A stretch of DNA of 64,000 nt, taken from the NCBI GenBank assembly GCA_034440615.1, contig JAOTOM010004738.1, forward strand, positions 310,001 to 374,000, given 5' to 3'. Source of the stretch: Ashinkailepas kermadecensis. Lineage: Eukaryota; Arthropoda; Thecostraca; Neolepadidae. Shown here piece after piece: positions 2,770-24,659 of the stretch; positions within the stretch are counted from its first letter, which is position 1, and every line of letters begins with the position of its first letter. The notes under the pieces are model-generated. The model saw nothing but the letters and a program-made list of their open reading frames with translations. It was not told where the DNA came from and made no database searches. A program made the translations under genes and the position numbers.

Positions 2770-3066
2770 TCACAGCGCTGGTCGTCGCCGCTGCTGCTGG
2801 CCGCCGCGGCGCTGGTGCACGCGCTGTGGGACGGCCAGTGCGGCGCCGCGCTCGCCTACCTGTGCGGCGCGGCCACCTTCTGGCGGCTGCTGGCGGCGCC
2901 GCTGCTGACGGCGCCCGACCGGCTGCCGCTGCCGCTGGCCGCACACCTGCTGCGCACACTGGCGCTGCAGCTGTACTACGGCCGGCAGCCGGACCGGCGG
3001 CTCGCCGACGTGCTGGCCGCCGTCACCGACGACCGCGACGGCCACCTGCTCGGCGCCTGGTCAAAG
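2770..3066 (+). CDS. Nup188: Nup188 exon A
   Basis: Internal exon of 99 codons, phase 0 at both ends. The acceptor is GGCCGACAG|TCACAG and the donor GGTCAAAG|GTGGGG. The peptide is leucine- and alanine-rich helix with LVHALWDGQCGAAL, then ATFWRLLAAPLL, then LRTLALQLYYGRQ. In animal Nup188 the same order (a helix containing LW, an FW..L.sPLF segment, then a LALELYY helix) occurs in the mid to C-terminal solenoid. Codons are strongly G/C-ending compared with the flanks. The preceding exon is not visible. The donor side founds a 31-bp tandem array that repeats the last exon bases. An antisense frame of 283 codons overlaps it and is a composition artefact. Confidence 0.8.
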
Positions 3067-3405
3067 GTGGGGGCACGGGAGCAACGCCTGGTCAGAGGTG
3101 GTGTCTCGGGAGCAACATCTTTTCAAAGGTAGGGTCACAGGAGCAACATCTGGTCAACGGTGGGGGCACAGAAACAACACCTGCTCAAAGGTGAGGTCAT
3201 AAGAGCAATACCTGGTGAAAGGCGGGATCACAGGAGCAACACCTAATCAAAGGTCGTGTCACTGGAGCAAAAACTGGTCAAAGTTGAGGTCACGGGAGGA
3301 ACACCCACGGGAGCAACACATTGGCAAAGGTTTGGGCACGGGAGCTACACCTGGTGAAGGGTGGGGTCACGGGAGCAACAGCTGGTCAAATGTGTTGTCA
3401 CGTGA
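3058..3405 (+). repeat. 31-bp donor-derived minisatellite after exon A
   Basis: About 11 copies of a 31-base unit are present. The first copy begins in the exon itself: CCTGGTCAAAG is the exon end and GTGGGGGCACGG the intron start. Later copies vary (GTCAGAGGTGGTG, TTCAAAGGTAGGG, GTCAACGGTGGGG). Most keep an A(A/C)(A/C)GGT(G/A)-like donor. Confidence 0.85.
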
Positions 3406-3675
3406 TCAATAGTTGATAAGCGGTTGGTATGGGGATGGGGTAAACTCCGTAGCACCGTGTCTAAGAGGGTGTGGAAGGGTGTTGAAACCGGATAATGATG
3501 TGTTCTCTGCATCGCAGTGTAGTGCAGCCTGCCACAAAAGCATGTCTTCACCCCCCCCCCCCCATGGTGCTAAGCCTGCGGGGCATAGCACCTGTTGTTG
3601 GTGTATTGGGCAATTGAAGGCTTTATTGGTCCCCTGGGCTCAAGAGCCTGCACCTTACATTTGTGCTTGGCATTA
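3406..3675. other. Intron A-B, unique part
   Basis: Non-repetitive intron with a C12-type run near 3550. No exon or element was recognised. Confidence 0.6.
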
Positions 3676-4029
3676 GATGACATTGTAGCTGTTGAGTGAC
3701 GTGCCGCGACGTCACAGCTGGCGTGTGACGTGACAACGTTGCGTCTGGTATGTGCCATGGCGTTACAGCTGCTGCGTAACGTGGTGTGACATTGCAACTG
3801 ATGTGTGATGTGCCATGACGTCACAGCTGGTTTGTGTGGCTTGCCATGACGCTACAGCTGGTGTTACGTGCTGTGACGCTAGAGCTGATATGTGACGTGC
3901 CGTGACGCTACAACTGCTGTGCAATGTGTTGTAACGTTGCAGCTGGTGTGTGACGTGCTGTGGCGCTATAGCTGGTGTGTGACGTGCCGTGACGTTGCAG
4001 CTGGTGTATGACGTGCCGTGACGTTGCAG
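3676..4029 (+). repeat. ~29-bp acceptor-derived minisatellite before exon B
   Basis: About a dozen degenerate units of roughly 27-50 bases are built on GTGACGTGCCGTGACGTTGC then AGCTGGTGT. The last units run straight into the real junction GACGTTGCAG|CTGGTGCGTGACG, so the unit contains the acceptor AG and the first exon B bases. Several copies keep an intact CAG|CTGGTG. Confidence 0.85.
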
Positions 4030-4180
4030 CTGGTGCGTGACGTGACGTGTTCGCTGTCGGAGGACCTGGACGCCTCCGTGCTGGCGCCGTGTCCGGAGTC
4101 GGCGCCCGAGGAGCGCCAGGCGGACGCCGCGAATCTACTGCTGGCCTGGCGCGACTGGTGCATGGTGGTGGCCGCGCCCG
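4030..4180 (+). CDS. Nup188: Nup188 exon B
   Basis: Internal exon of 50 codons plus one base (phase 0 in, phase 1 out), with acceptor GACGTTGCAG|CTGGTG and donor GCGCCCG|GTTAGT. It begins LVRDVTCSL and ends LLLAWRDWCMVVAAP. The family has the same arrangement here: a YVKSL-like helix, an acidic loop, then a helix with AWR and hydrophobics. The loop ASVLAPCPESAPEE is low-complexity. The exon start is embedded in the tandem array to its left, so first-exon codons LVRDV also occur in decoy copies upstream. The exon was too short to stand out as an open frame and is supported by splice phase and alignment order. Confidence 0.75.
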
Positions 4181-4203
4181 GTTAGTGTGGGTTAGTTAAC
4201 ACG

Positions 4204-4205
<2 letters not shown>

Positions 4206-4269
<64 letters not shown>
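4206..4269. repeat. (TA)n microsatellite
   Basis: Roughly 31 uninterrupted TA dinucleotides start 25 bases after the exon B donor. Confidence 0.97.
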
Positions 4270-4436
4270 GGGTGTGTGTACGTGTATGTGTGCGCGAGAG
4301 AGCATTACGGCTAAAAATGTAACACGATCTGTTATGGGCTGCTTTGGGCTTTGGGTCTTTGTATTGTCTTGGAATGGCGCGCATTGTATCAGGAAATTTT
4401 AACTCGTCTATACGCTGGTCGTGTATCACTGCCACC

Positions 4437-4809
4437 AGTGCGCCGGTTGACGTGCCGGAGGTGTAAGGTGACGCGACGTGACCGCTGGCGGCCGATGGCA
4501 GGAGCGTCGGTGACGTTGTCGCCGGTTGACGTGCCGGAGTGTAGGCGACGTGACCGCTGGCGGCCATGGCAGGAGCGTCGGTGACGTTGTTGCCGGTTGA
4601 CGTGCCGGAGGTGTAAGGTGACGCGACGTGACCGCTGGCGGCCGATGGCAGGAGCGTCGGTGACGTTGTCGCCGGTTGACGTGCCGGAGGTGTAAGGTGA
4701 CGCGACGTGACCGCTGGCGGCCGATGGCAGGAGCGTCGGTGACGTTGTCGCCGGTTGACGTGCCGGAGGTGTAAGGTGACGCGACGTGACCGCTGGCGGC
4801 CGATGGCAG
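4437..4809 (+). repeat. 79-bp acceptor-derived minisatellite before exon C
   Basis: Nearly five copies of a 79-base unit are present. Each contains GCCGATGGCAG|GAGCGTCGG, identical to the true exon C acceptor, followed by GTGACGTTGTCGCCGG, the next exon bases. After that the copies diverge into GTTGACGTGCCGGAGGTG while the true exon continues ACAGCC. One copy (about 4515-4590) carries small deletions. Reading on from a decoy acceptor in the exon C frame reaches TAA. Confidence 0.9.
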
Positions 4810-4960
4810 GAGCGTCGGTGACGTTGTCGCCGGACAGCCAACGTCGGGTGCTGGTCGACCTGATGACGTCGCTGGAGCAGCAGCTGAACGGGCCCGGCCG
4901 GCCGCGTCTGGTCAGCACGCTGGCCGAGCTCATCATGATGCTGACGTCACACTGGACAGG
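4810..4960 (+). CDS. Nup188: Nup188 exon C
   Basis: Internal exon of 151 bases (phase 1 in, phase 2 out), with acceptor CCGATGGCAG|GAGCG and donor GGACAGG|GTCAGT. With the base left by exon B it reads G-ASVTLSPDSQRRVLVDLM, then a helix, then LAELIMMLTSHW. The family has a corresponding TDSVVRRQLFLDVL-like helix and a final LLLILLRQW-like helix, so the order and spacing fit. Both exon edges founded arrays: 79-bp units on the left and 75-bp units on the right. It is therefore the clearest case in the window of an exon bracketed by copies of its own two junctions. Confidence 0.8.
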
Positions 4961-5312
4961 GTCAGTGGCGCTCTCCACTATCGGGACTGTCCTACTGACA
5001 CACCATGACGCTGATGTCCCACTGGACACGGTCAGTGGTGCTCTCCACACCGGGGTCGGGACTATCCTGACACACCATGACGCTAACGTCATACTGGACA
5101 GGGTCAGTGGTGCTCTCCTCGCCGGGGTCGGGACTGTCCTACTGACACACCATGACGCTAACGTCATACTGGACAGGGTCAGTGGTGCTCTCCTCGCCGG
5201 GGTCGGGACTGTCCTACTGACACACCATGACGCTAATGGCATACTGGACAGGGTCAGTGGTGCTCTCCCCGCCGGTACTGGCCTGCTGACACCATAACGC
5301 TGATGTCCCACT
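4961..5312 (+). repeat. 75-bp donor-derived minisatellite after exon C
   Basis: About 4.5 units of 75 bases are present. Each carries GACGCTAACGTCATACTGGA then CAGGGTCAGTGGTGC, matching the exon C end GCTGACGTCACACTGGACAG and donor GTCAGTGG. So about 26 exon bases plus the donor are repeated. A detached copy (CACTGGACACGGTCAGCGA) lies at about 6465-6484. Confidence 0.9.
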
Positions 5313-5587
5313 GGCAGACCGGTTTACCCTTACACTTTTGGCGTGCTTATTACGATTTTGCACATGGAACTACGCCAATGCTATATCTCTAGACTGATTA
5401 CGCTTATCAGCGAGGTGAAAATACGATTTTTTCATGTCGGTGATTTTCCGTTTTTTTTCAGTTCCGAATTTTATTTTCCTTAATGTTCCGTTCCAAGTTT
5501 TTACTTTCGGTCGTCGAGCGCGCCATTTTCCCCGATTCGGTATGTTCATCGCTCGGCAGAAGAACTTTCTACTTGCTTCCGACAACA
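5313..5587. other. Intron C-D, AT-rich
   Basis: AT-rich sequence with T-runs leads into the hAT fragment. No exon was recognised. Confidence 0.5.
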
Positions 5588-6079
5588 TGTCATGTCAAGG
5601 ATGTGGAGGTTGTGGACACCAACCTTCAGGCATCATCCAGCGCACAGAGCATCACCAACCTGATTATCAGATTCCCCTTCCTCATTCCACCTGATGTCTC
5701 CAAGCAGACAATACTGGAACAGTTCAGAGTGTACCAGCAAGAGGACATTACCGCATGTGTGGCTGATCGCATTGACGACACCTGGTCAGCAATTGGGAAT
5801 CTCAAAGATGAAACTGATGAGCAGACCATGAAAGAACTCTTCAAAGTGATGTGTGGGATCCTCACTGTTCCCCATTCCAGTGCTCACTGTGAGCGTGTTT
5901 TCTCATGTGTGAGGAAAAACCGCACAGACCAGAGATCATGCCTTGGCGACGACACTCTGGAGAGTTTGCTGGTTCTGAAGTCTCGCCCAGGGAGCTTCAC
6001 TACCAGAACCTACTCCAAAGATGTTCTTGACAACGTTAAGTCAGCCTACTACAAATCACTGCAGGCAACTCAACTGTAA
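5588..6079 (+). pseudogene. hAT-like transposase C-terminal fragment
   Basis: An open frame ends at TAA 6077-6079. The last ~150 residues include DTWSAIGNL, then LTVPHSSAHCERVFSCVRKN, then DDTLESLLVLKSRPG. This HSSAxxERxFSxxxxxxT...L..LL.lks pattern is the hAT dimerisation domain near the C terminus of hAT transposases. The DDE catalytic core and BED finger are missing, so it is a 5'-truncated relic or a captured domain. It lies in sense orientation in intron C-D. Base composition (about 48 percent GC) differs from the GC-rich exons nearby. Confidence 0.65.
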
Positions 6080-7096
6080 CCAAACAAATCAAGTCCACCC
6101 ACCCACTCATTTTGACACGTTTTGTGGCTTATGACTTTGTTTTGTACAAGTAAATGGTTTCTCACACACACAGTTGCATCTAGTGAATTTGACATTCCTT
6201 TTATGGCTTTGTTTTGTACTCATGTTTCCAAATTCTCATTGCGTCTTCGATGTTCTGTGAGCTGGATATTGTCAGCCTCTAAGATTGATTTCCACGAATA
6301 TAGTCCACCCCATCTACTGAATTTGCCTTTTTTCATTGTGTTGATGAGGCTCTGCGGGCTGGATGATGCTGGAAGGTTGTCCACAAATTACACTTTTTGG
6401 TCTGAGATTACACTTTTTTGCTGGTTGAAGTACTCCAAATACTTTGAGGGGGTAAACAGGTCTGCACTGGACACGGTCAGCGATGCTCTCCGTGGGGCAC
6501 AGCAGCGATTCGGAACCAGCCTGCTGGAATTTGGGACGCTGTGTTATAATCCAGGTGTCATGAGATCCAAAAACTTGCAATAGTTGTCGCTGATGATTGT
6601 GCGTAGGCAGGCTGAGCATAAGCGCGCGAGCTGCGCTGTTTCTTTTGTTTTCTGATCTGTATCTGCGGGCATACATCAGAGCTCGGTGGCACTCACCCGT
6701 CTGTCGCAATATATTAATATGATGTAAATGACATTTGAGCTGCAGCAATGGTAATACTTAGTGATTATGTGGTGGGTATTGTGACGTAAAGTCATGCGAT
6801 TGCCAACACTTTCGTCTCGCTTTGGATGCACTCACTTTACTATGTAGTGACTGTATCGCTTCGCGCCTTCTCATGCTGCAGTGCAGTTATGATGCCGCCG
6901 TCTCCCAGCTATCGCGGTGATTGCGATGATGTGGCATCTTCATCTTCGAAGCTTTGGCGATTGTTGCAACGTGACCCCCCACTCCCCACCCCTCTCCGTA
7001 CGGATAAATGAGTAATGACTGTGCCCAACTCCGTGGCAGTGTTACGTGCCACCCCCGTTAGATCTGATCTGGATAACGTAGCCCCCTGTTTCCCAG
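6080..7096. other. Intron C-D remainder
   Basis: Mostly AT-rich. It contains one stray copy of the exon C donor unit near 6460-6500. No other feature was recognised. Confidence 0.5.
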
Positions 7097-7248
7097 ATGC
7101 TGCAGCGATCATGAAGTGCTAGACCACACCTGGTCGCTGCTGGAGGCATGCAGCGTCCGTTTTGAGGAGCTGCACGTGCGCGCACGGACAGCCGTGCTGA
7201 CAACAGCGCTGTGGACCCTTCAGCAGTGTCAAGCGGGGTCAGATGCAG
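7097..7248 (+). CDS. Nup188: Nup188 exon D
   Basis: Internal exon of 152 bases (phase 2 in, phase 1 out), with acceptor TGTTTCCCAG|ATGCTG and donor GATGCAG|GTGGGG. It reads CCSDHEVLDHTWSLLEACSV, then RFEELHVRARTAVLTTALW, then TLQQCQAGSDA. The family has an acidic start, an ILEGVL-like helix, and a QQLMEKTKAKVFSAFITVLQ-like helix. An alternative donor at CAAGCGGG|GTCAGA was considered, but only the chosen donor leaves phase 1, which exon E needs. The acceptor side has no tandem array, in contrast to exons B, C, E and H. Confidence 0.78.
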
Positions 7249-7620
7249 GTGGGGCCTGGTGTAGTCACAGGCAGGGTCAGAAGCAGGCGGGACCTGCTGT
7301 AGTGTCAGGAGGGGGGGGTCAGAAGCAGGTGGGGCCTGCTGTAGTGACAGGCAGGGTCAGACGCAGGTGGGGTCTGCTATAGTGGCAGGCGGGGTCAGAT
7401 TGCAGGTGGGGCCTGCTACGGCGGCAGGCGGGGTCAGATGCATGTGGGGTCTGCTGTAGTGTCAGGCAGGGTCAAGTCAAGATGTGGGAGATGGTTGTTG
7501 TGGTGTTTGGTGGGGTCAGACAGATGCAGGTGAGGGGTGTGGGGCTAGTGTAGTGTCAGGCAGAGACAGATGCGGGTGTGGGATGAGGGACTGTCTTCAT
7601 GTCAGGCGGGGTGCTGTGGT
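7230..7620 (+). repeat. ~42-bp donor-derived minisatellite after exon D
   Basis: About nine degenerate units of roughly 42 bases are built on GGCGGGGTCAGATGCAGGTG then GGGCCTGCTGTAGTGTCA. The unit repeats the exon end GGGTCAGATGCAG and donor GTGGGG. Many copies retain GCAGGTGGGG. Confidence 0.85.
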
Positions 7621-8119
7621 GAAGCATTAAGGCAATCTGTCGCTTGCCACCTTTGGGCAATGCCAAAGCTTGAACTCATTTGTCACGGTCGTTTTGGCAG
7701 ACAACCGGGGCAGTGGTAGACTGCGCTGCCTTCGCCGCAGCAACAGTACTGCTGGTGGTGTGCAGATATACAGTGCTGATTTGTGTGCGTAGTGCTGTAT
7801 GAGCTGAACTCTTGAAGATTAGTCGCGTTTTCAGGACTTGTCAGCTGATCGTGGGATGACCAATTAATACTTGAAATTTTTCATCGGTAGCGATTAAAAA
7901 TAATCGTGTGAGTGCGTATGGATAGTGTTCATGCGTGTTTAAGCAGAATTGTGTGCTGTTCTTATCTTAGCACTCTCAGAGCTGTAACTGGTCAGCCTGT
8001 GTATCCCCGGTCTGCCCCGGCATTTAGCCCTCTCTCAGGAATGTTGACCGACCCTGAATTATTGTCCCGCCCGCAGTGGTGTGGGTCTACTAGCGCCCTT
8101 TTGGCCGGATCTCTGGTTC
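7621..8119. other. Intron D-E, unique part
   Basis: No exon or element was recognised. The sequence becomes GC-richer toward the exon E acceptor array. Confidence 0.5.
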
Positions 8120-8466
8120 CTCCCGCAGAGGTGTTGATTTGCTGTCGTTCAGTGGCGCCCGTCTGTCCTGACCTCTGACCCCTGACCCCTGCGGCAGAGG
8201 TGTCGGTCTGCCATTACTGCGTGACACCCGTCTGTCCTGACCTCTGACCCCTGACCCCTGCGGCAGAGGTATCGGTCTGCCATTACTGCGTGACACCCGT
8301 CTGCCCTGACCTCTGACCCCTGACCCCTGCGGCAGAGGTGTCGGTCTGCCATTACTGCGTGACACCCGTCTGTCCTGACCTCTGACCCCTGACCCCTGCG
8401 GCAGAGGTGTCGCTCTGCCATTACTGCGTGACACCCGTCTGTCCTGACCCCTGACCGCTCCGGCAG
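8120..8466 (+). repeat. 69-bp acceptor-derived minisatellite before exon E
   Basis: Four near-identical 69-base units plus a more diverged first one are present. Each contains CCCTGCGGCAG|AGGTGTCGG, the exon E acceptor and start, then bases translating as VSVCHYCVTPVCPDL in the exon frame, ending in TGA. The true exon reads VSACQRCVAPVCQML, so about 45 coding bases were copied and have since diverged. Confidence 0.92.
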
Positions 8467-8831
8467 AGGTGTCGGCCTGCCAGCGCTGCGTGGCGCCCGT
8501 CTGCCAGATGCTGGAGCTGGCGCTGTCGCAGACGGAGCCGGCCGACGCGGCGCCGGCCGCCGTGCAGCTGGCCGGCCTGGCGGCGCTGCTGCTGCGCCGG
8601 CTGGTGACAGCCGAGCCGGCGCGCCGGCAGCTGGCCGGCCGGCTGACGCTGCCGGCCGCGCTGGCCACGCTGGGCCGCCGGCTGCGCCAGGCGCGCCAGC
8701 CGCAGCTGTGCGAGCGGCTGCTGCAGGCGGCGCTGGCCGCCACCGCCGCCGACCGGCAGGCGGCCAGCGGCGCAGTCTCGCTGGGCCTGTCCAGCGTCGT
8801 GTGTCTGCCGCTGGCCGACCTCAGACAGAAG
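8467..8831 (+). CDS. Nup188: Nup188 exon E
   Basis: The largest exon seen: 365 bases, 121 codons plus two (phase 1 in, phase 0 out). The acceptor is CTCCGGCAG|AGGTGT and the donor GACAGAAG|GTACGC. It starts VSACQRCVAPVCQMLELAL and proceeds through alanine/leucine-rich helices. The later part holds CERLLQAALAATAADRQ and ends LSSVVCLPLADLRQK. In the family this region has a LVLNVCETLQE-like helix, a variable linker, a HLLLTLARTQ-like helix and a final SICLPLLSVYQ-like helix. Third codon positions are almost all G or C. The donor side lacks a convincing array, although AAGACAGAAGGTGCAG near 9033 resembles the donor. Confidence 0.82.
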
Positions 8832-9552
8832 GTACGCCCGCTGAGCTTCACGTGTGCAGACGTTGTGAGCGTCTAGGCTGTGTGTGGCGTAGAGTACTGA
8901 CGTCTGATCCGCTGCACCTCGCTCAAACAAAATGTCCACTCGTATGCCGTTCTGCAGACGGACAGGGCGTCCGGTCTACTCCTGTTTTCCCCAGACAAAA
9001 GGCAAGGGCATCTGGTTCACTCTCGTTCCTTAAGACAGAAGGTGCAGATGTCTCATCCCCTGGCAGGTGTGTGTTGGCTAGTCCATATCGCATGTGATCG
9101 CTGCTTTGGTCGTGACGGTGTGTCTGCTATAACGGTAGCATCGCGATTCATCTATCGCATTACACAGAACATTCCCTGTTTTCACGCCCTGCAGGCGACG
9201 GATGAAGGCGTCATCCCTGAATATCCATGCTAGTTCCTTTCCTTATAGATGGCATGTGGTAAGGAGAACACGCTAGGACTTGTTACATTTGTGTCATTCG
9301 CTGACTGGAAGTAAAAAGATCTACTCGCGGGATCTGCCATATCTTTGATCAGTGTCCGCCTGTCGTGTGTGGCCACTTGCAGACTGGAGGTGGGCGAACA
9401 CGCTGTACACCCGAAGCACGTGTGCAACGAAGTTAGCTTCTGGCAGTACCTTTGGTATCAAATTTGGTAGCCAAGTCATAGTTGTATGTGTTCGAATTTG
9501 CCAGCCGCCGTCCCGTCACATCGCAGTGGCTGGTACAGCGCACTAAGCTACT
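8832..9552. other. Intron E-F, first part
   Basis: Non-coding, with one stray donor-like copy near 9033. No exon was recognised. Confidence 0.5.
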
Positions 9553-10395
9553 GAGTCAGCGTCTCTGTGCCAATGGCCGGCCGACTGCCCCTCATGACTT
9601 CCGCCAGGTGTGGCAGATCATGGGCCGCCAGTACGGCCGCCAGTCAGTGATGTGTGGAGGCCCTCAGCGTCTCTGTGCCAATGGCCGGCCGACTGCCCCT
9701 CATGACTTCCGCCAGGTGTGGCAGGTCATGGGGTACGGCCGCCAGTCAGTGATGTGTGGAGGCCCTCAGCGTCTCTGTGCCAATGGCCGGCCGACTGCCC
9801 CTCATGACTTCCGCCAGGTGTGGCAGGTCATGGGGTACGGCCGCCAGTCAGTGATGTGTGGAGGCCCTCAGCGTCTCTGTGCCAATGGCCGGCCGACTGC
9901 CCCTCATGACTTCCGCCAGGTGTGGCAGGTCATGGGCCGCCAGTACGGCCACCAGTCAGTGATGTGTGGAGGCCCTCAGCGTCTATGTGCCAATGGCCGG
10001 CCGACTGCCCCTCATGACTTCCGCCAGGTGTGGCAGGTCATGGGGTACGGCCGCCAGTCAGTGATGTGTGGAGGCCGTCAGCGTCTCTGTGCCAATGGCC
10101 GGCCGACTGCCCCTCATGACTTCCGCCAGGTGTGGCAGGTCATGGGGTACGGCCGCCAGTCAGTGATGTGTGGAGGCCGTCAGCGTCTCTGTGCCAATGG
10201 CCGGCCGACTGCCCCTCATGACTTCCGCCAGGTGTGGCAGGTCATGGGGTACGGCCGCCAGTCAGTGATGTGTGGAGGCCCTCAGCGTCTGTGTGCAGAT
10301 GGCCGGCCGACTGCCCCTCATGACTTCCGCCAGGTGTGGCAGGTCATGGGCCGCCAGTACGGCCGCCAGTCAGTGATGTGTGGAGGCCGTCAGCG
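9553..10395 (+). repeat. 102/108-bp intronic minisatellite
   Basis: Eight near-identical units begin CAGCGTCTCTGTGCCAATGG. Short units are 102 bases and long ones 108, with an extra six bases in the CCGCCAGTACGG stretch. Both lengths are multiples of three, so a forward frame stays open throughout and would give a roughly 34-residue repeat. It lies between exons E and F, which join directly in frame, so the open frame is judged an artefact. Confidence 0.9.
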
Positions 10396-11872: not shown

Positions 11873-12028
11873 TTGGGAGCCGAGTTCAACCGGGAGTGGC
11901 GGGGAGTTTGGGTGCTCACCATCCACTTGTGGACGACGCTGCTGCGCTCTCAGAAGCACTTCTTCATCGTGGACGCGCTGGACTTCGCCGCCGTTCACTG
12001 CGGCTCTCTCAGCGCCGCTATTGCCCAG
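11873..12028 (+). CDS. Nup188: Nup188 exon F
   Basis: Internal exon of 52 codons, phase 0 at both ends, with acceptor TGTTATTTCAG|TTGGGA and donor ATTGCCCAG|GTGAGC. It encodes LGAEFNREWRGVWVLTIHLW, then TTLLRSQKHFFIVDALDFAA, then VHCGSLSAAIAQ. The family carries a W..VYRLSMSLMEQLL-like helix followed by an EALDFVGVH motif. The VDALDFAAVH here is one of the best conserved landmarks in the window. The acceptor has a normal pyrimidine tract and no array. The donor is followed at once by a second, 24-bp-spaced copy (GCTCAG|GTGAGC). Confidence 0.88.
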
Positions 12029-12245
12029 GTGAGCCCGTCTGTTGCTCAGGTGAGCCCATCTGTTGTGACAGCCTGGTCTGTTGTCTGTTGTGAGTAATGC
12101 AGGGTCTGTTGCAACAGCCTGGGAGCCGTTCTGTTGCATAATCCAGGATCTGGCCTCTCGCCATAGCCCAAGAGATAGTCTGTTGCTGTAGCCCGATAGC
12201 TCTTCTGTTGCCATAGCCTGATGGCTCCTCTGTTTTGTCACTTGC
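12029..12245 (+). repeat. Short donor-derived repeat after exon F
   Basis: A 24-base duplication of the junction (GCCCAG|GTGAGCCC then GCTCAG|GTGAGCCC) is followed by looser ~34-base units ending in TCTGTTGCCATAGCC-like sequence. Confidence 0.7.
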
Positions 12246-12409
12246 AAGCCTACTTCAGCATCTGACGCGAAGCTGAATCGGATCTGATCTGCATGTTACG
12301 CGCAGTGGAACTGGTCTGCATTCGAGTGCAAGCCGGGCTGCGATGTTTCAGAGGCTCTCGTCACGGCTCGAGCTGATAGCCTGACGGGGGCACTGTTCAG
12401 CCGTTGATC

Positions 12410-14790
12410 GGCCGTGACCTGGTGGCAACGACTGTACCGGTCGGACCTCAGCCCACTCTGTGACGTGATCCCGTGTGACCGGCCGTGACCTGGTGGCAAT
12501 GACTGTACCGGTCGGACTGCAGCCCACTCTGTGACGTGACCCGGGTGATCGGCCGCGACCTGGTGACAATGACCCTGTACCGGTCGGACCTCAGCCCACT
12601 CTGTGACGTGACCCCGTGTGACCGACCATAACCTGGTGACAATGACCCTGTGTCGGCCGGACCTCAGCCCACTCCGTGACGTGACCCACATGTGACCGGC
12701 CGTGACCTGGTGACAATGACCCTGTTCCGGCCGGACCTCAGCCCACTCCGTGACGTGACCCACATGTGACCGGCGGTAACCTGGTGGCAATGACTGTACC
12801 GGCCGGACCTCAGCCCACTCCGTAACGTGACCCACATGTGGCCGGCCGTTACCTGGTGACAATGACCCTGTGCCGGCCGGACCTCAGCCCACTCCGTGAC
12901 GTGACCCACATGTGGCCGGCCGTGACCTGGTGACAATGACCCTGTTCCGGCCGGACCTCAGCCCACTCCGTGACGTGACCCACATGTGACCGGCCGTGAC
13001 CCGGTGGCAATGACTGTACCGGCCGGACCTCAGCCCACTCCGTAACGTAACCCACATGTGACCGGCCGTGACCTGGTGGCAATGACTGTACCGGCCGGAC
13101 CTCAGCCCACTCCGTGACGTGACCCACATGTGACCGGCGGTAACCTGGTGGCAATGACTGTACCGGCCGGACCTCAGCCCACTCCGTGACGTGACCCACA
13201 TGTGACCGGCCGTGACTTGGTGGCAATGACTGTACCGGCCGGACCTCAGCCCACTCCGTGACGTGACCCACATGTGACCGGCCGTGACCTGGTGGCAATG
13301 ACTGTACCGGCCGGACCTCAGCCCACTCCGTGACGTGACCCACATGTGACCGGCGGTAACCTGGTGGCAATGACTGTACCGGCCGGACCTCAGCCCACTC
13401 CGTGACGTGACCCACATGTGACCGACGGTAACCTGGTGGCAATGACTGTACCGGCCGGACCTCAGCCCACTCCGTGACGTAACCCACATGTGACCGACGG
13501 TAACCTGGTGGCAATGACTGTACCGGCCGGACCTCAGCCCACCCCGTGACGTGACCCACATGTGACCGGCCGTGACCTGGTGGCAATGACTGTACCGGCC
13601 GGACCTCAGCCCCACTCCGTGACGTGACCCACATGTGACCGGCCGTGACCTGGTGGCAATGACTGTACCGGCCGGACCTCAGCCCACTCCGTGACGTAAC
13701 CCACATGTGACCGACGGTAACCTGGTGGCAATGACTGTACCGGCCGGACCTCAGCCCACCCCGTGACGTGACCCACATGTGACCGGCCGTGACCTGGTGG
13801 CAATGACTGTACCGGCCGGACCTCAGCCCACTCCGTGACGTGACCCACATGTGACCGACGGTAACCTGGTGGCAATGACTGTACCGGCCGGACCTCAGCC
13901 CACTCCGTAACGTGACCCACATGTGACCGACGGTAACCTGGTGGCAATGACTGTACCGGCCGGACCTCAGCCCACTCCGTGACGTGACCCACATGTGACC
14001 GACGGTAACCTGGTGGCAATGACTGTACCGGCCGGACCTCAGCCCACTCCGTGACGTGACCCACATGTGACCGACGGTAACCTGGTGGCAATGACTGTAC
14101 CGGCCGGACCTCAGCCCACTCCGTGACGTGACCCACATGTGACCGGCCGTGACCTGGTGGCAATGACTGTACCGGCCGGACCTCAGCCCACTCCGTGACG
14201 TGACCCACATGTGACCGTCCGTGACCTGGTGGCAATGACTGTACCGGCCGGACCTCAGCCCACTCCGTGACGTGACCCACATGTGACCGGCCGTGACCTG
14301 GTGGCAATGACTGTACCGGCCGGACCTCAGCCCACTCCGTGACGTGACCCACATGTGACCGGCCGTGACCTGGTGGCAATGACTGTACCGGCCGGACCTC
14401 AGCCCACTCCGTGACGTGACCCACATGTGACCGGCCGTGACCTGGTGGCAATGACTGTACCGGCCGGACCTCAGCCCACTCCGTGACGTGACCCACATGT
14501 GACCGACGGTAACCTGGTGGCAATGACTGTACCGGCCGGACCTCAGCCCACCCCGTGACGTGACCCACATGTGACCGGCCGTGACCTGGTGGCAATGACT
14601 ACCGGCCGGACCTCAGCCCACTCCGTGACGTGACCCACATGTGACCGGCCGTGACCTGGTGGCAATGACTGTACCGGCCGGACCTCAGCCCACTCCGTGA
14701 CGTGACCCACATGTGACCGGCCGTGACCTGGTGGCAATGACTGTACCGGCCGGACCTCAGCCCACCCCGTGACGTAACCCACATGTGACC
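12410..14790. repeat. 72-bp minisatellite, ~33 copies, before exon G
   Basis: A long array of a 72-base unit is present (CCGGCCGTGACCTGGTGGCA, then ATGACTGTACCGGCCGGACC, then TCAGCCCACTCCGTGACG, then a CCCACATGTGA end). The copies at the left edge are more diverged and include 73-74-base variants; the middle is highly homogeneous. The array stops 5 bases before exon G, whose acceptor is the CAG of ACCGGCAG. Since 72 is divisible by three, several reverse-strand frames remain open for hundreds of codons; these are artefacts. Confidence 0.95.
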
Positions 14791-14795
14791 GGCAG

Positions 14796-14921
14796 CTGCG
14801 CTCCAGTCTGCTGGCGCCCGACCTGGAGGAGACGGAGGCCGTAGTCAGCTTCCTTGCCACGCTGGTCACGTACAGCACAAAGTGGAAGCAGCAGCACCGG
14901 CACTCGTTCGACACGCTTCTG
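14796..14921 (+). CDS. Nup188: Nup188 exon G
   Basis: Internal exon of 42 codons, phase 0 at both ends, with acceptor TGTGACCGGCAG|CTGCGC and donor ACGCTTCTG|GTATGC. It encodes LRSSLLAPDLEETEAVVSFL, then ATLVTYSTKWKQQHRHSFDT, then LL. The family has a CLEEADHTVGFLLQLSxFMK-like stretch followed by W.fHLPQLM, and the order and spacing match closely, including the acidic pair before the helix and the W ten residues later. Its pyrimidine tract is poor because the 72-bp array supplies the upstream intron. The exon was invisible as an open frame because it is short, but splice phase and similarity support it well. Confidence 0.87.
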
Positions 14922-15690: not shown

Positions 15691-16195
15691 TCTCCACCCT
15701 TGGCGTTGTACCTCCGCCCATCGGTCTCAGTACCGCCGGCCGTGTCGTCTGCAGCGTGTTCTAGGACGTACAGCGCTGCCGCAGTCGTAATGGGATAACT
15801 CGTCCAGCCACGGGTGTCGTGTCGCCTGCCACATACAGTGGAGGAGGGCGTCAAATGACCGTGTAGTCGGCGCGCCCCGAAGCCAAATAATCAGTCAAAG
15901 CGGAGAGGTTGTTAACGTGCAGCTCGAAGTTCATCACGCCGGATGAGGTTTTCAGCTGGACACGTACCTAAACACGGTGTTGCTCGCCGCCGCTATTTTC
16001 AGTAATATTCAAGTAGTGATGCAAAGACAAGTTGGTTACTGTACGAAATAGTACCAGCACGGTGTCGGGTGCTGTGCAGAGCTTGCAACTCTCACTCGAT
16101 ACCACGGGCATCGTTGAGCCGCGTGTCTGAATCCTCTGTCTCTCCAGACTGCTGTCAGAGAACGTCTATGGTAGAGAGGTTGTGTGGTGATGTGT
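15691..16195. other. Intron G-H, unique part
   Basis: No exon or transposon was recognised. Confidence 0.5.
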
Positions 16196-16760
16196 CGGCA
16201 GCGTTTGCTACAGATGTAGCTGTCGGACTGTGTCGGCATCTGTTTCTGGAACGTGTGTCGGCGGCTCCTGTTACAGACGTGGCTGTCGGGTTGTGTCGGC
16301 ATCTGTTTCTGGAACGTGTGTCGGCGGGTCCTGTTACAGACGTGGCTGTCAGTTTGTGTCGGCATCTGTTTCTGGAACGTGTGTCGGCGGCTCCTGTTAC
16401 AGACGTGGCTGTCAGGCTGTGTCGGCATCTGTTTCTGGTACGTGTGTCGGCGGCTCCTGTTACAGACGTGGCTGTCTGGTTGTGTCGGCATCTGTTTCTG
16501 GAACGTGTGTCGGCGGCTCCTGTTACAGACGTGGCTGTCAGGCTGTGTCGGCATCTGTTTCTGGTACGTGTGTCGGCGGCTCCTGTTACAGACGTAGCTG
16601 TCTGGTTGTGTCGGCATCTGTTTCTGGAACGTGTGTCGGCGGCTCCTGTTACAGACGTGGCTGTCGGGTTGTGTCGGCATCTGTTTCTGGAACGTGTGTC
16701 GGCGGCTCCTGTTACAGACGTGGCTGTCGGGCTGTGTCGGCATCTGTTTCTGGTACGTGT
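16196..16760 (+). repeat. 63-bp acceptor-derived minisatellite before exon H
   Basis: Nine copies of a 63-base unit are present, each with GGCTCCTGTTACAG|ACGTGG, the exon H acceptor and start, followed by CTGTCGGGCTGTGTCGGCAT and CTGTTTCTGG. The last copy is the exon itself. Since 63 is divisible by three, the copy starting at 16655 is open and in frame with exon H. The copy at 16592 has a TAG instead of TGG at its second codon. Confidence 0.92.
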
Positions 16761-16902
16761 GGCGGCCGACTATCGTGGCGCTGCTTCTGGAGCGTTCACA
16801 CACAATGGCCGGCCGGGAGGAGCTCAAGAGGGTGCGACGACTCAGCAGTACCGACCCAGAGCCGGAGAGGGCACCTCCACAGGTCACCCGCGTCCAGAAC
16901 AG
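16718..16902 (+). CDS. Nup188: Nup188 exon H
   Basis: Internal exon of 185 bases (phase 0 in, phase 2 out), with acceptor CCTGTTACAG|ACGTGG and donor GTCCAGAACAG|GTCAGT. It encodes TWLSGCVGICFWYVWRPTIV, then ALLLERSHTMAGREELKRVR, then a polar linker with PEPERAPPQ. The family has a sulphur- and leucine-rich helix (a LGYLCQA-like segment), a srkmL-like helix and then a disordered polar linker. An earlier donor at CCTCCACAG|GTCACC would leave phase 0 and break the frame with exon I, so it was rejected. The similarity is looser than in exons F, G or I. Which of the last array copies supplies the real start is not certain. Confidence 0.68.
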
Positions 16903-17300
16903 GTCAGTTGACGGGTCAGCGTGGTACAGAACAGGGGAGCGAGGCAAATGACAGGGCACCCGCGTCCAGAACAGGTCAGTGGACGGGTCAACCTGGTGCA
17001 GAACAGGGAAGCGAGGTACATGACGGTCACCCGCATCTAGAACAGGTCAGTGGACGGGTCAGCATGGTACAGCACAGGGAAGCGAGGTACATGGCAGGTC
17101 ACCCACTTACAGAACAAGTCAGTGAGTGGGCTAGCCTGTTACAGAACAGGGAAGCGAGGTACATGACAGGTTACCCGCGTCCAAAACAAGTCGGTGGTTG
17201 GGTCAGCATGTTACAGAACATGGAAGCGAGGTACATGACAGGTCACCCGCGTCCAGAATAGGCCAGTGGGTGGGTCAGTCTGGTGCATAAACACAGCCGG
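16884..17300 (+). repeat. ~60-70-bp donor-derived minisatellite after exon H
   Basis: About six units contain CACCCGCGTCCAGAACAG|GTCAGTGGACGG, repeating the exon H end and donor, then CAGAACAGGGAAGCGAGGTA and CATGACAG. The extra CAGAACAGG inside each unit gives a second donor-like motif. Confidence 0.88.
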
Positions 17301-17551
17301 GTATAGGGCTGGCCACACGTGCCTGGACAGGTCAGTGCTGGGTAATGGGTGTCCAGAACAAGGCAGGGTGGGATAAGCCAGGTCACCACTTTGTCCCAGA
17401 AAGGATTGGTGGCCAGGTGCAGGCACTTCGCTGGTGAACGGCAGGTTTTCAGAGCATAAGCATCTATCCCTGTCCGATTAATACTGGGTATTCAGACTCT
17501 GTTCCCACGCAGTCTGAGAGGTCTGGTTTGGCGTTATTTCTGCTCCCTTAC
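17301..17551. other. Intron H-I, unique part
   Basis: Nothing recognised apart from decayed array copies at the left edge. Confidence 0.5.
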
Positions 17552-17565
17552 AAACTACGAAATTA

Positions 17566-17726
17566 GGGGGACGAGTGGTCTAGGGGTAAGATGCTCGTCT
17601 CACAATCGAAAGGTTGTAGGTTAGAGTCTCACCTGTCGCTACTCTTCGCCCGCGACCAATCGGCGTGAGAGATTGGCGACGCTACATGACTCAACGGTCG
17701 ACGTGTCGTAAAACCAATAACCAACC
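17566..17726 (+). mobile_element. tRNA-derived SINE, copy 1
   Basis: About 161 bases. The head has pol III A-box TGGTCTAGGGG and B-box-like GGTTAGAGTCTC; other copies have GGTTCGAGTCTC. The body contains CGCCCGCGACCAATCGGCGT and the 3' end AACCAATAACCAACC. The 14-base duplication AAACTACGAAATTA flanks it at 17552-17565 and 17727-17740. The head looks tRNA-Val-like (CTCACAA in the anticodon-loop position), which is uncertain. Confidence 0.9.
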
Positions 17727-17884
17727 AAACTACGAAATTAATTCCCTATGTGATCCAGCTGAGACGCTCGATTCCATCCTCAATCCGATCAACGTTTAGC
17801 AGGACTCGGAGTTGAGCAACACTGGTGAGCCGATTCCGATGAAGTCCGGCTGCCGAATTCCAATTGTAATTCGTTCGTGTTCAG

Positions 17885-18273
17885 GGTACGAGTAGTCTAG
17901 GGGTAAGTTTCCCGGCTCACAATCGAAAGATTGTGGGTTCGAGTCTCACCTGTCGCTACTCTTCGCCCGCGACCAATCGGCGTGAGAGATTGGCGACGCT
18001 ACATGACTCAACGGTCGACATGTCGTAGAAACCAATAACCACCACCCAACTTTACGGAAAAAAGCGTCTGGAACCGCAACTGATGTTCCGACTGCAAATG
18101 ATCAGTTTTTTTAAACAGTTGGGAGCTTTCTGTGCGATACCTCATGTGAAAGTGAGGAATAGCAAATCATGCCACAGCATTGCCACGGGCTTCCAGTTGT
18201 GGGTGGCGGCCCACTCATCTAGCCACATCTACATGACGCAATGGTCGACGTGTCGTAAAACCAATAACCACCA
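17885..18273 (+). mobile_element. Composite (dimer-like) SINE, 389 bp
   Basis: It starts with a full SINE head and body like copy 1, then about 160 bases of unrelated sequence, then a second SINE 3' end (CTACATGACGCAATGGTCGA and onward). One pair of 14-base duplications, TCGTTCGTGTTCAG, flanks the whole at 17871-17884 and 18274-18287, implying a single insertion. Confidence 0.8.
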
Positions 18274-18287
18274 TCGTTCGTGTTCAG

Positions 18288-20127
18288 ATCTGATATAGGC
18301 GAACAACAATCAGCTTCCGGCGCAAATCCCAGCTGGACTGTGAACGAAGCCGATATTTGTTGGGTGTAGATGGTGTGCCATCAGGCTCTTTGGCTGGTCG
18401 TCCCGGCACATAGCAGGTCACAGAACACGTCACACGCTATGTCATGTAACAATCTGGTAGACGTGCACACAGAGCTGGTCACACGGACACAGGACAAGTC
18501 GGCAGCTATGTACACAACGGTCTCATGTGATGCAAGTCAAGCTCGAAACTGTTCCGGACATCTCGCCGAAACCGATTAATCTCGTCCGCGCAACGACAGC
18601 CGTTGAGCGTGTATTTTGGCTGGCTTTGTTGTGCTCGGTGGACGTGGCACACACGAGGCAGACATTACTGCGGACGTCGGTCCGGTTGCTTTATGGCAGA
18701 CACCGATGTGCAGTGTTCTCACTGGCAGGTCGGTTGGGTGTGGCCTGATGCTAACTTCCGGTACCAGCGATCTGTGATTACGAGCGCGACACTAATCAAA
18801 ATAGTGGTGTTGCCGTGTAACACCACTATTCCATCCCCATCCGCTCTAGTGAGCCCCCGAACGTGCATGTACCCCTCGAGAACTGCGCAGTACACTAATT
18901 GTCTTTTGAAACAGGGAAGAGGTCAACACACTTTCAGAATGCATTAGAGCCTTTTCCATTGGTGGCGACTCTTATGCATTTGTCACTATTGTTCTCAATG
19001 GAACACTGGCGTACGCTTTCCACCTAGTAAATATGACATTCTAGCTCTGCATACCGGGGCAGTGAGTGATCGTGGCAGCATTTCAAGTTATCGCGAAATG
19101 GCTGCCGGGCTTTTTTGGCTCTCTAGTTACGCTTTGTGCTCGTTAGCTCGTTTGTGTCGACGCATGGACGTCCTTTCTGACAGCGCAGTTTCGTTAAACA
19201 ATCGGGCAAGTCATCATTTCGTCAGCGAAAAAGTTCGGGTAGTTTTAATTTCTCTGAAACAATTTGCAAGTTCAGCGGCGGACTAAAAGCAGGCCGCGGA
19301 CTATGCCTGTTAGAACTGTTTGTCTTTGCCCGATGAGCGGATGGTGATTGTGAAAGGGCGTGAACGATGCAGCACTCCTGGCTAAAATGTGGTTCCATCG
19401 TTTCGTGCTCCCAACATTAATTGCATTTTTCTTGCCGTTGGGAAATGAAAAGGAATGACGCGGCCGCTAAAGTCTCGGAAATTAGGAGGCATAGGGCCGC
19501 CGTGTTCCGAGGAAAGTTCTTTTTTCAGTGACCAATGCCTTCGAGCCGTGTGATAGATGATATGTGACCCTCTGAACCGTTTTTTAATATGTTGGATGGG
19601 CGGGCTCACCATCTACATCATGGCATGTGCGAAACCTAGTGTTTGACGTGATCTTGGAAGTGTGCAGCTCCATGGCATTGCAACAGTTCATTAAAGTATA
19701 ACATTATAATTGCGCAATATAGCAATGCAGCTGCCAAGTGGAATACATCATTCGAATTGCACATGCCGGCTTGCGTGCATTTTCATATGCTGGATGATTT
19801 GGATTTGTCACAATTGGGCGTTGTTTCCCTGAGTGAAGAAATCTACTCACGAACGGACACTTGAACCCCCATCCACCTGAAGAATGAAGAAACAGCGACT
19901 GATGTAAACAGTAAAATCATGTAAGCATGACAGTGAAACGAAGGTGTAATGTACGCAATGCCCCATGACGTCATTCTGTCGCATGTGCTGAATGGGGTGG
20001 TGGACGTCTCACATGCTATGGCTGTGGTCGATTAATTCATAATTGTATGAATATTATACATCACGAATTATATTGAATTATTCATTTTTATTGCATTATT
20101 GTAGCCCACCCGCCTGTCCTGCCGCAG
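18288..20127. other. Intron H-I, unique part
   Basis: About 1.8 kb without a recognised exon, RNA or element. It becomes AT-rich from 19,600 toward the exon I acceptor. Confidence 0.5.
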
Positions 20128-20344
20128 ACTAGTTCGTCTATCGTCCGTGTGCCTGGTGGCGCTTCAGGCGCTGTCGCCGCCGCTGCCGACGCTGCTGACC
20201 CAGGACGGCCTTGACCTGAGTCAGTGGGAGCTGCTGGTGGACGCCAGCATCGCCTCGCCCACGCTGGACCAGCCGGACGCGCCCCACCTGACCTATGGCA
20301 CTCTGCTGGCCGGCGTCAGCGTCTGCGTCCGCCCGCTGGCCAGG
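20128..20344 (+). CDS. Nup188: Nup188 exon I
   Basis: Internal exon of 217 bases (phase 2 in, phase 0 out), with acceptor CCTGCCGCAG|ACTAGT and donor CTGGCCAGG|GTGAGA. Its first base completes an Arg codon begun in exon H. It encodes LVRLSSVCLVALQALSPPLP, then TLLTQDGLDLSQWELLVDAS, then IASPTLDQPDAPHLTYGTLL, then AGVSVCVRPLAR. The family has a LLKILSKTLAALR-like helix, a DLAEYNFLFALSFTTPTFD-like stretch and a FGTLLATVNVAL motif, all in this order. With exon F this is the strongest similarity in the gene. There is no array on the acceptor side. Confidence 0.88.
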
Positions 20345-20778
20345 GTGAGAACGTCTTATCGTCTGTATCTTACTGCTGGCGAGGGTGAGAACGTCTCGCC
20401 GTCTGCATCGGGCCGCTAGGGAGGGTGAGAACGTCTCACCGTCTGCGTCTGATCGCTGGCGATAGTCAGAACGTCTCACCGTCTGCGTCTGATCGCTGGC
20501 GATGGTAAGAACGTCTCGCCGTCTGCATCTGGTTGCTGGCCAGAGTGAGTGCGTCTCATTGTCTGTATCCGGCCGTTGAAGAGGGTGAGAACGTATCACC
20601 GTTTGTGTATGCCTGCTGACGAGGGTGAGAACGTCTCACCGTCTGCGTCCGCTCGCTGGCGATGGTGAGAACGTCTCACCGTCTGCATCTGACCGCTGGC
20701 GAGGGTGAGAACATATCACCGTCCGTGTCCGCCCGATGGCCAGGGCAAGAACATACCACCGTCTCCGTCTGTTATAGT
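20331..20778 (+). repeat. ~40-bp donor-derived minisatellite after exon I
   Basis: About 11 units contain CGCTGGCGAGGGTGAGAACG then TCTCACCGTCTGCGTCTGAT. The exon end CCGCTGGCCAGG and donor GTGAGAACG are repeated in nearly every unit. Confidence 0.9.
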
Positions 20779-21384
20779 AATCAGTGCGGCGTGGCAGTGA
20801 TACATTATTCGTGAAATAGGGTGGAATATACCACTTTCTGAATACTCAGTTGACATCCTCCTCCATGAAGTACCGACATCATGCTTCTTGAGGCATGTTT
20901 ATGAAGTCTTCATGTCTCCTTTCAAACTCATAAGTACCATGCTCATGCTCAGTACAGTCATAAGTATGCCATTGGCTCAAATTTGAGTCTGAAAGACATC
21001 AAAAACATTTTAAATGACATTAATTCCATGACAAATTTCAACATCCTCCTGTGCTCGTTTCGACATCTCACACCTAATGAAAACCATTATTTTAACACTG
21101 TAGCGAGGTCGTACACTATCATCGTGTGTGTGTGGGGGGGGTAGGTGTCAGTTGTGTGCGTAGATACTGCCACCGGCGAAAGTGAGCTGTTCAAAACATG
21201 CTTAAAGTTGATTCCCTATGTTTACATGTACCTTCTGTATACGCTGATGGTGGTGTACCTCATACCAACTGAAGAGAGGATATAAATTTCCAAGCAAGTG
21301 ACCTCCGTTTCGCACTCTAGCTAAGACTTAGCTACCGTTAAGACCAGGATTAACAAGTTTTTTTTCCACGTGGTAAGTTTGAAT
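20779..21384. other. Intron I-J, unique part
   Basis: AT-richer intron with no recognised feature. Confidence 0.5.
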
Positions 21385-21600
21385 GACCACTATTGCCGTG
21401 ACGTGACACCACTGCTACCGTAACAGTTCGGCCGTGACGTGACACCACTGTTACCGCAACAGCCGCGCCGTGACGTGACACCACTGCTACCGTAATAGCC
21501 GTGCCGTGACGTGACACCACTTCTACCGCAACAGTTTGGCCGTGACGTGACACCACTGCTACCGTAACAGCCGTGCCGTGACGTGACGCTCGTGTCCGTC
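21385..21600 (+). repeat. 36-bp array before exon J
   Basis: Five full 36-base units (CGTGACGTGACACCACTGCT then ACCGTAACAGCCGTGC) and a last partial one run into the exon J acceptor GTGTCCGTCAG|TCGGAG. Each unit holds ACCG(T/C)AACAG, comparable to the acceptor, followed by TTCGGCC in some copies, comparable to the exon start TCGGAGC. Derivation from the junction is probable rather than certain. Confidence 0.85.
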
Positions 21601-21602
21601 AG

Positions 21603-21782
21603 TCGGAGCGGTCGCCGGCGCGCGGTGCCGAGCCGGCGCTGGAGCGGTCGGCGCTGCTGACGGTGCTGCACCAGACGCTAGCGCTGGTGCTGAGTCAGGC
21701 GGCGCTGCACCGGCTGCGGCCGCCGGCCGTCGGCGACACTGACCGGCAGTCGCTCAACTGCGACCTGCTGCACAGGGAGCTG
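21603..21782 (+). CDS. Nup188: Nup188 exon J
   Basis: Internal exon of 60 codons, phase 0 at both ends, with acceptor GTGTCCGTCAG|TCGGAG and donor AGGGAGCTG|GTGAGT. It encodes a variable start (SERSPARGAEPALERS), then ALLTVLHQTLALVLSQAALH, then RLRPPAVGDTDRQSLNCDLL and HREL. The family has a polar linker, a TLLMFTMENCFYLLISQAMRYL-like helix, a DPAVHP-like turn and a KQRMKQEL-like helix leading into the last conserved helix. The exon end (CTGCTGCACAGGGAGCTG) is the seed of the 50-bp array that follows. Confidence 0.85.
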
Positions 21783-22545
21783 GTGAGTGGGTCACGGCGG
21801 GGTCAGCTGATCTGCTGCACAGGGAGCTGGTGAGTCTGGGTCACGGCGGGGTCAGCTGATCTGCTGTACAGGGAGCTGGTGGGGACGAGTGGTCTAGGGG
21901 TAAGATGCTCGTCTCACAATCGAAAGGTTGTGGGTTCGAGTCTCACCTGTCGCTACTCTTCGCCCGCGACCAATCGGCGTGAGAGATTGGCGACGCTACA
22001 TGACTCAACGGTCGATGTGTCGTAAAACCAATAACCAACCACAGGGAGCTGGTGAGTCTGGGTCAGCTGACGGGTTGTACAGGGAGCTGGTGAGTCCGGG
22101 TCACAGCCGGGTCAGCTGACATGTTGCACAGGGAGCTGGTGAGTCTGTGTCACAGCTGGGTCAGCTGACCGGTTGTACAGGGAGCTGGTGAATATTGGTC
22201 ACAGCCGGGTCAGCTGACCTGCTGGTGATTCTGGGTCACAGCCGGGTCAGATGACCTGCAGTACAGGGAGCTGGTGAGTCTGGGTCACAGCAGGGTCAGC
22301 TGATCTGCTGGTGATTCTGGGTCACAGCCGGGTCAGATGACCTGCAGTACAGGGAGCTGGTGAGTCTGGGTCACAGCAGGGTCAGCTGATCTGCTGGTGA
22401 TTCTGGGTCACAGCCGGGTCAGATGACCTGCAGTACAGGGAGCTGGTGAGCCTGGGTCACAGCCGGGTCAGCTGACCTGCTGCACAGAAAGCTGGTGAGT
22501 CTGGGTCACGGCAGGGTCAGCTGACCTGCTGCACAGAGAGCTGGT
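21768..22545 (+). repeat. ~50-bp donor-derived minisatellite after exon J
   Basis: About 15 units contain CTGCTGCACAGGGAGCTG|GT, the exon J end and donor, followed by GAGTCTGGGTCACAGCCGGG and TCAGCTGAC. Some units lack the GTACAGGGAGCTG part. A SINE (21882-22040) interrupts the second or third unit. Confidence 0.92.
21882..22040 (+). mobile_element. tRNA-derived SINE, copy 3, inside donor array
   Basis: A 159-base SINE with intact A-box TGGTCTAGGGG and B-box GGTTCGAGTCTC. The 14-base sequence ACAGGGAGCTGGTG flanks it at 21868-21881 and 22041-22054. The duplication equals the array motif, so it could partly reflect the array itself. Confidence 0.9.
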
Positions 22546-23048
22546 CAGGTGACAATGCGATACCCAGACGATGTGAGTCACGACCACCGGTCACGCGGTC
22601 ACGACACCGGTCAGTGACCAGCATCATGTGCATGGTGTGGTTGGTTGTTGGAGCTCCGTAGCGCAGGGACTACGTTCGTATTCAGCTTAAAGCGATGACA
22701 CTTTGCAGCCAGCATTGGTGAGTGACGTTGTCAGAGAGACACGCTCTGACGTTGTCAGAGAGAGAGATGGATTGAACCGATATAGGAGCAGCATCTGATG
22801 CGTGTCTGCAGATGGTGCAATTGGAGAACAGAACAAATATAATTTGGCCTCACTGTCTCTGACGGTACACCGCGGCACGCTACTAAATTGGTATCCAGCG
22901 AAAACAACTCCGGGGTAGAAAACACCACAAAGGATTGGACAATGAATCACGCGTGTGAGCTGGTACATTACGGGCACTCGCGTACCCGGCGGACAGATCG
23001 CAGACCTGAGCTTGAGGACCATTCGAGACTCACGGATCACTGCGCGAC

Positions 23049-24493: not shown

Positions 24494-24659
24494 AAGGGGA
24501 CGAGTGGTCTAGGGGTAAGATGCTCGTCTCACAATCGAAAGGTTGTGGGTTCGAGTCTTACCTGTCGCTACTCTTCGCCCGCGACCAATCGGCGTGAGAG
24601 ATTGGCGACGCTACATGACTCAACGGTCGACGTGTCGTAAAACCAATGACCAACCAACC
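24494..24659 (+). mobile_element. tRNA-derived SINE, copy 4
   Basis: The same family as at 17566 and 21882. Near-perfect 13-base flanks are AACTGATCCCGCT (24481-24493) and AACTGACCCCGCT (24660-24672). It is nested in the fold-back structure. Confidence 0.9.

Follow-up and report, generated by a model that had tools for sequence, protein, structure and literature searches.

Tandem repeats that run across exon-intron boundaries are known from amphioxus, where, according to two papers (PMC3087553, PMC3902484), Adh (Adh3), the globins BflGb6 and BflGb9, TnC and PGBD5 carry "mirages", that is, repeats with units of 10-160 bp which cover 5' or 3' exon ends, retain AG or GT in many, not all, of their copies, and have boundary copies that escape homogenisation. 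For the amphioxus globins, reverse transcription-polymerase chain reaction is reported to suggest undisturbed splicing and haplotypes are reported to carry different numbers of copies, while how the repeats originate is unclear to the authors. Two further systems are related more loosely: human duplicated genes are reported to carry internal tandem repeats, minisatellites with a mean of ~30 bp, some at exon-intron boundaries (PMC2812944), and introns are reported to have been gained through tandem duplication of AG/GT-bearing segments (PMC4974935). Here we describe arrays across many exon edges of the Nup188 gene of the arthropod Ashinkailepas kermadecensis (Thecostraca, Neolepadidae), starting from a window of 64,000 nt in assembly GCA_034440615.1 (908 Mb in 4689 contigs; contig JAOTOM010004738.1, here C4241, positions 310001-374000). 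Coordinates below count from the first base of this whole stretch, and all exons and arrays of the gene lie on its forward strand. Judged by their structure, the arrays are mirage-type minisatellites, of a kind already published, which here are very dense and go with GC-rich exons. An earlier sequence-only reading of the window had known of no described system in which most junctions of a gene are amplified in this way; the amphioxus mirages have the same structure.

Junction arrays in Nup188

For each exon edge, a 60-base probe was aligned to the adjacent intron, excluding the edge-proximal 30 bases, and its score was compared with those of 100 dinucleotide shuffles. We probed 22 edges in the window, namely the donor of an upstream exon, E0, and the edges of exons A-K, and found junction-spanning copies beating all 100 shuffles at 10 of them: four acceptors (B, 60 v 28 for the best shuffle; C, 108 v 27; E, 68 v 24; H, 115 v 27) and six donors (A, 53 v 29; C, 67 v 27; D, 73 v 25; H, 83 v 28; I, 76 v 23; J, 86 v 28). 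All ten had been named in the sequence-only reading, as had the F donor, which scored below the shuffles (20 v 25), its second copy lying mostly in the excluded 30 bases, and where Tandem Repeats Finder (TRF) finds a weak repeat of a 21-bp unit, 2.1 times, across the junction (12021-12065). Two further arrays, at the acceptors of G (51 v 32; a 72-bp unit repeated 33 times at 12405-14793) and J (30 v 25; a 36-bp unit at 21394-21587), abut the edge without crossing it, ending 2 bp and 15 bp before it, respectively; the J acceptor, earlier given as a probable case, was rejected as a junction array for this reason. No signal above the shuffles was seen in the edge test at the E0 donor, A acceptor, B donor, D acceptor, E donor, F acceptor, G donor, I acceptor or K acceptor.

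The junction arrays have units of 21, 29, 31, 38, 40, 49, 63, 69, 72, 75 and 79 bp, in line with the varied lengths listed earlier, and reach 8 to 49 bp into the exon. At exon A (2770-3066), the donor array covers 3056-3409 with a 31-bp unit, 11 bp exonic, and has 10 intronic copies of the junction ("decoys"), 8 of them keeping GT. The acceptor array of exon B (4030-4180) lies at 3752-4049 (29-bp unit, 20 bp exonic; AG kept in 5 of the 7 decoys counted). Exon C (4810-4960) is flanked on both sides, by an acceptor array of near-identical copies at 4441-4833 (79-bp unit, 24 bp exonic; AG kept in 4/4) and by a donor array at 4934-5275 (70-75-bp unit, 27 bp exonic; GT kept in 4/4). The donor of exon D (7097-7248) is repeated over 7225-7474 with a unit of ~38 bp, GT being kept in 4/5 copies, and the acceptor of exon E (8467-8831) over 8158-8503 (69-bp unit, 37 bp exonic; AG kept in 4/4). 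Past exons F (11873-12028) and G (14796-14921), exon H (16718-16902) again has arrays at both ends, at 16191-16766 for the acceptor (63-bp unit, 49 bp exonic; AG kept in 8/8) and at 16879-17284 for the donor (72-bp unit, 24 bp exonic; GT kept in 4/4). Donor arrays follow exon I (20128-20344), at 20316-20771 (40-bp unit, 29 bp exonic; GT kept in 9/10), and exon J (21603-21782), at 21765-22545 (unit ~49 bp, 18 bp exonic).

These exons, together with the terminal exon K (26019-26165), which carries the stop codon, make up the C-terminal half of Nup188 within the first 26 kb of the window. All eleven models have GT/AG borders, agreeing phases, Nup188 homology and no internal stop, and give a product of 708 aa plus the stop. 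The spliced product matches solved Nup188 chains over their C-terminal half, namely 7wkk (E 6.9e-32) and 5ijo (E 1.3e-25), which we take to be the Xenopus and the human chain, with 28% identity to a solved chain over a single 170-column block, and the exon borders are consistent with the alignment. Searches of this half for Pfam domains and for relatives in a large protein collection gave no match, so that the identity rests on the Protein Data Bank (PDB) chains. Of the upstream exon E0, the end is at 2125, the start is not fixed, and the last residues align to Nup188. Mean GC is 0.71 for exons A-K, and E0 has 0.43.

Further Nup188 exons are found in the 30 kb upstream, where U1-U10 match residues 87-775 of 7wkk (3.9e-50), and U12 and U13 match residues 826-934 of 5ijo (9.6e-6 and 1.2e-8). 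With introns cut at 3 kb, and with models that skip the exons separating U10 from U12 and those beyond U13, this 5' half shows junction-spanning copies at 9 of 24 edges, and the whole gene at 19 of 46. Among these 24 edges the U2 acceptor is shifted by a single base, the U8 acceptor is not the same as in the homology match, and the U7 donor, which scored above the shuffles (47 v 25), extended just 5 bases into the intron and is not among the nine.

Like amphioxus mirages, the units in the window span the boundary (at 10 of the 22 edges, plus the weak F donor), affect both boundary types (four acceptors and six donors), have lengths of 21-79 bp that fall within the published 10-160 bp, and keep GT or AG in many, not all, copies (60/66). 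A boundary copy standing outside homogenisation is clear at two edges, the E acceptor (0.84 v 0.99 to the consensus for the exon copy and the remaining copies of the homogenised array) and the C donor (0.83 v 0.94), but not at most others, where the exon copy is as close to the consensus as the remaining copies; the J donor is unreadable through indels. Unlike in amphioxus, where these papers describe one or few junctions per gene, 19 of 46 tested edges of a single gene are affected here, and among titles and abstracts of open-licence papers we found no report of a gene with this many arrayed junctions, and none of such arrays in Nup188. Splicing and instability have been examined experimentally for amphioxus mirages, whereas the arrays here are known from the sequence of one assembly. 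The human internal tandem repeats are reported to lie in recent paralogues and to alter the transcript, whereas here the gene is conserved and the repeats are presumably spliced out. The described intron gains share with our arrays the tandem duplication of a segment that carries splice signals, but there the duplication is reported to create a new intron, whereas here existing introns are enlarged.

Excess over chance and independence of the arrays

Arrays straddle exon edges far more often than random placement predicts. Under a random-seeding null, in which one unit was dropped at random into introns freed of extra copies, 1.8 straddling arrays are expected when the unit falls in its own intron and 1.1 when it falls in any intron, compared with 11 observed among 20, a number reached in 0 of 100000 runs. 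A placement null allowing intrusion of up to 50 bp gives an expectation of 2.5/21 against the 11 seen, with 0 of 5000 runs reaching 11. Both nulls use array periods of at least 10, and the seeding null treats the divided J array as a single one. Probes from the exon middles of Nup188 in the window found array copies in 0 of 21 cases.

The arrays also appear to have arisen separately at each junction, as the sequence-only reading had proposed in speaking of many independent events with one rule. The 17 units compared, which exclude a 7-bp array at 2624, appear mutually unrelated, with 7 of the 136 pairs exceeding 40 shuffles where ~3 are expected, and within the window the copies of each edge are confined to its own intron, one of them inverted; the sole distant copy, an inverted J-donor fragment at 24662, lies in the same intron. 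On these two grounds we rejected a common origin of the arrays. A motif shared by the units, GGTCA/GGGTCA, was likewise discarded, an equally common 5-mer appearing in 227 and a 6-mer in 69 of 1000 shuffles. Divergence among copies differs greatly between arrays, those of the C acceptor being near identical and those of A, B and I, compared without gaps, being ~10-40% different from the real junction, and the ages of the arrays therefore differ.

Intron J-K holds other repeats beside the J-donor array. A short interspersed nuclear element (SINE) derived from tRNA-Val(CAC), ~160 bp long, has four copies in the gene; the one at 21883-22045 interrupts and splits the J-donor array, and the three others (17569-17727, 17888-18045 and 24498-24656) are 94-98% like it. 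A broken inverted repeat in the same intron (22473-22989 / 24659-25962, arms 81-95% complementary) contains the inverted fragment of the J-donor array, which adjoins a SINE.

Decoy splice sites

Since 60 of 66 intronic copies keep their GT or AG (57 of 63 in a slightly different copy set), the decoys have not been purged. Other non-CpG dinucleotides lead one to expect 48.4 (standard deviation 6.3; p = 0.019, or 0.003-0.04 under other comparison choices), and it is doubtful that the decoys are kept by selection. When the decoy junctions were spliced in silico, in a set that omits the J-donor copies and includes 6 decoys lacking GT or AG, 54 of 56 led to a frameshift or a stop and 2 left a full-length open product. 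Because almost all decoys break the frame or introduce a stop, the exon-proximal copy is presumably the one mainly used in splicing, and it is this copy, taken as the real junction from the start, that keeps the protein intact.

Recurrence in other genes and exon GC content

Spanning arrays recur outside Nup188. The LEO1 gene on the same contig (C4241:235-250 kb, L007-L009; identity 1.7e-96) has them at 2 of 10 edges, the x4 donor being repeated over 2.7 kb and the x3 donor being weak (27 v 23). In myosin-head genes they are found at 8 of 79 edges, from 40 exons, on 7 contigs, and exon-middle probes from this sample gave 0 spanning copies in 80. The myosin sample consists of 40 of 78 profile matches (rows 2-41 by E-value, the single-exon row 1 being skipped) with 600 bp searched on each side, against flanks of up to 3 kb for Nup188 and LEO1. 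One donor, that of L030, had no splice-site candidate and is excluded from the 79 edges, and four further edges that beat the shuffles through intron bases only were not counted as spanning. The genome-wide alignment of exon edges to introns that the sequence-only reading had called for was thus run on Nup188, LEO1 and the myosin sample; recurrence of spanning arrays was borne out, at fewer than half of the edges, and the notion that most junctions of a gene are amplified does not stand (10/22 and 9/24 in the two parts of Nup188, 8/79 in the myosins, 2/10 in LEO1). As a separate observation, clusters of repeated myosin exons on contigs C4393 and C4673, at profile positions ~377-436, resemble the mutually exclusive exons known from muscle myosin and, together with the genome size, would suit an arthropod better than a lancelet.

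Myosin matches with a spanning array have a mean GC of 0.63, and the others 0.56 (Mann-Whitney p = 0.0018). Spanning arrays accompany 8 of the 15 matches whose GC is at least 0.60 and 0 of the 25 below 0.60, a cut that was picked after viewing the data. GC of the myosin flanks shows no clear difference (0.55 v 0.51, p = 0.13). In Nup188, the low-GC exon E0 has no array at its donor, the sole E0 edge tested. The GC link, if it holds, rests on one gene family together with the high GC of Nup188; we know of no earlier report of such a link, for which the literature was not searched.

Other elements in the window

A hAT dimerisation domain is encoded at 5444-6076, inside Nup188 intron C-D. Downstream of the gene, two 463-bp inverted repeats (44389-44851 / 47093-47555), 96% complementary and built of 16/33-bp tandem units, look like those of a foldback-type transposon, and a long interspersed nuclear element (LINE) at 48591-54036 has endonuclease, reverse transcriptase and RNase H domains, its best relatives showing 54% identity.

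Discussion

We think it probable that tandem duplications arise at GC-rich exon ends and are tolerated through exon-proximal splicing; the earlier proposal, in which exon edges are duplicated and selection holds the coding copy, is likewise the likeliest reading. Short tandem duplications (~20-100 bp) would be frequent in the GC-rich exons of this genome, perhaps due to high GC itself or to a correlate such as recombination. Those with one breakpoint in an exon end and the other in the intron would be tolerated because the outer copies are removed together with the intron and the exon-proximal splice site still yields a normal exon, while duplications wholly within coding sequence would mostly be purged. 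Once a unit was doubled, slippage or unequal exchange could lengthen the array and partly homogenise its intronic copies, with only the coding copy being held by selection.

Bias towards exons would be unnecessary if duplications were spread uniformly along the gene and selection left just those that lie in introns or span an edge, and the genome is indeed rich in minisatellites, which on average occupy 12% of the sequence in nine stretches from other contigs (TRF score of at least 80) and, in this gene, 38% of the Nup188 intron bases (TRF score of at least 50). Yet such an even model predicts 1.1-1.8 straddling arrays in 20 where 11 are seen, and exon GC, which should be irrelevant to it, matters in the myosin sample, so that this explanation is disfavoured and in our view improbable. 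Alternatively, a process could recognise exon ends or splice sites regardless of GC, perhaps through co-transcriptional breaks, R-loops or nucleosome edges. Donors and acceptors are both affected, and edges are copied while exon middles are not (0/21 in Nup188, 0/80 in the myosins), as such a process would predict; however, the middles could be equally unstable and be purged by selection, the exonic reach, which ranges from 8 to 49 bp, shows no constant spacing from the splice site, and myosin matches with low GC are without arrays (0/25), and we therefore regard it as unlikely.

That the decoys are kept as splicing aids, either backup or regulatory sites, draws on the excess of intact GT or AG noted above, but this excess is small, counts related copies separately and concerns copies picked by similarity; 54 of 56 decoys would damage the product, about half of the edges have no decoys at all, and a role of this kind seems very unlikely to us. 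Least probable of all, to the point that we give it hardly any weight, is an assembly artefact caused by reads wrongly piled at repeats. Arrays of near-identical units, such as those at the C and E acceptors, may have a wrong copy number, but copies that are ~10-40% divergent, as at A, B and I, are not produced by assembly error, and the pattern recurs on 7 other contigs.

Several observations weigh against an origin at GC-rich exon ends. Within Nup188, array-bearing and spared edges are not told apart by exon GC: exons D (0.61), F (0.63) and H (0.64) have arrays, and the B donor (exon GC 0.73), the E donor (0.79) and K (0.71) have none. Viewed as coverage, the location of 11 of the 22 edges within arrays does not discriminate (P = 0.18), although this measure is a weak one, ignoring that long arrays cannot extend over exons. 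For the myosins, a simple splice-site score beside the profile match, not a gene model, set the edges, and an internal stop is listed for 10 of the 40 matches, including L047 among the eight with spanning arrays. Among the spanning signals outside the window, two of the 19 Nup188 ones and two of the 10 from LEO1 and the myosins either lie near the shuffle maximum (U7 acceptor, 25 v 20; x3 donor, 27 v 23) or are short (U1 acceptor, 45 v 30; L060, 34 v 22). Finally, edge rates are unequal between genes, with 19/46 in Nup188 against 10/89 in LEO1 and the myosins together (Fisher p = 0.0001), which suggests that something besides the edge itself matters.

A wider generalisation is possible, and we put it forward tentatively: GC-rich exon ends could be general duplication hot spots, so that the junctions of thousands of genes would be arrayed as decoys among which the spliceosome reliably picks the exon-proximal copy, and the process that makes exons GC-rich, for example recombination, might be the one that makes the arrays. 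Gene prediction and assembly may misplace exon ends in such genomes. The exon-GC link, if it holds, opens the origin of these arrays, a question that the amphioxus globin paper leaves unanswered, to a direct test. At the same time, the many natural, sequence-matched decoys beside real splice sites let one ask how the spliceosome selects the exon-proximal copy.

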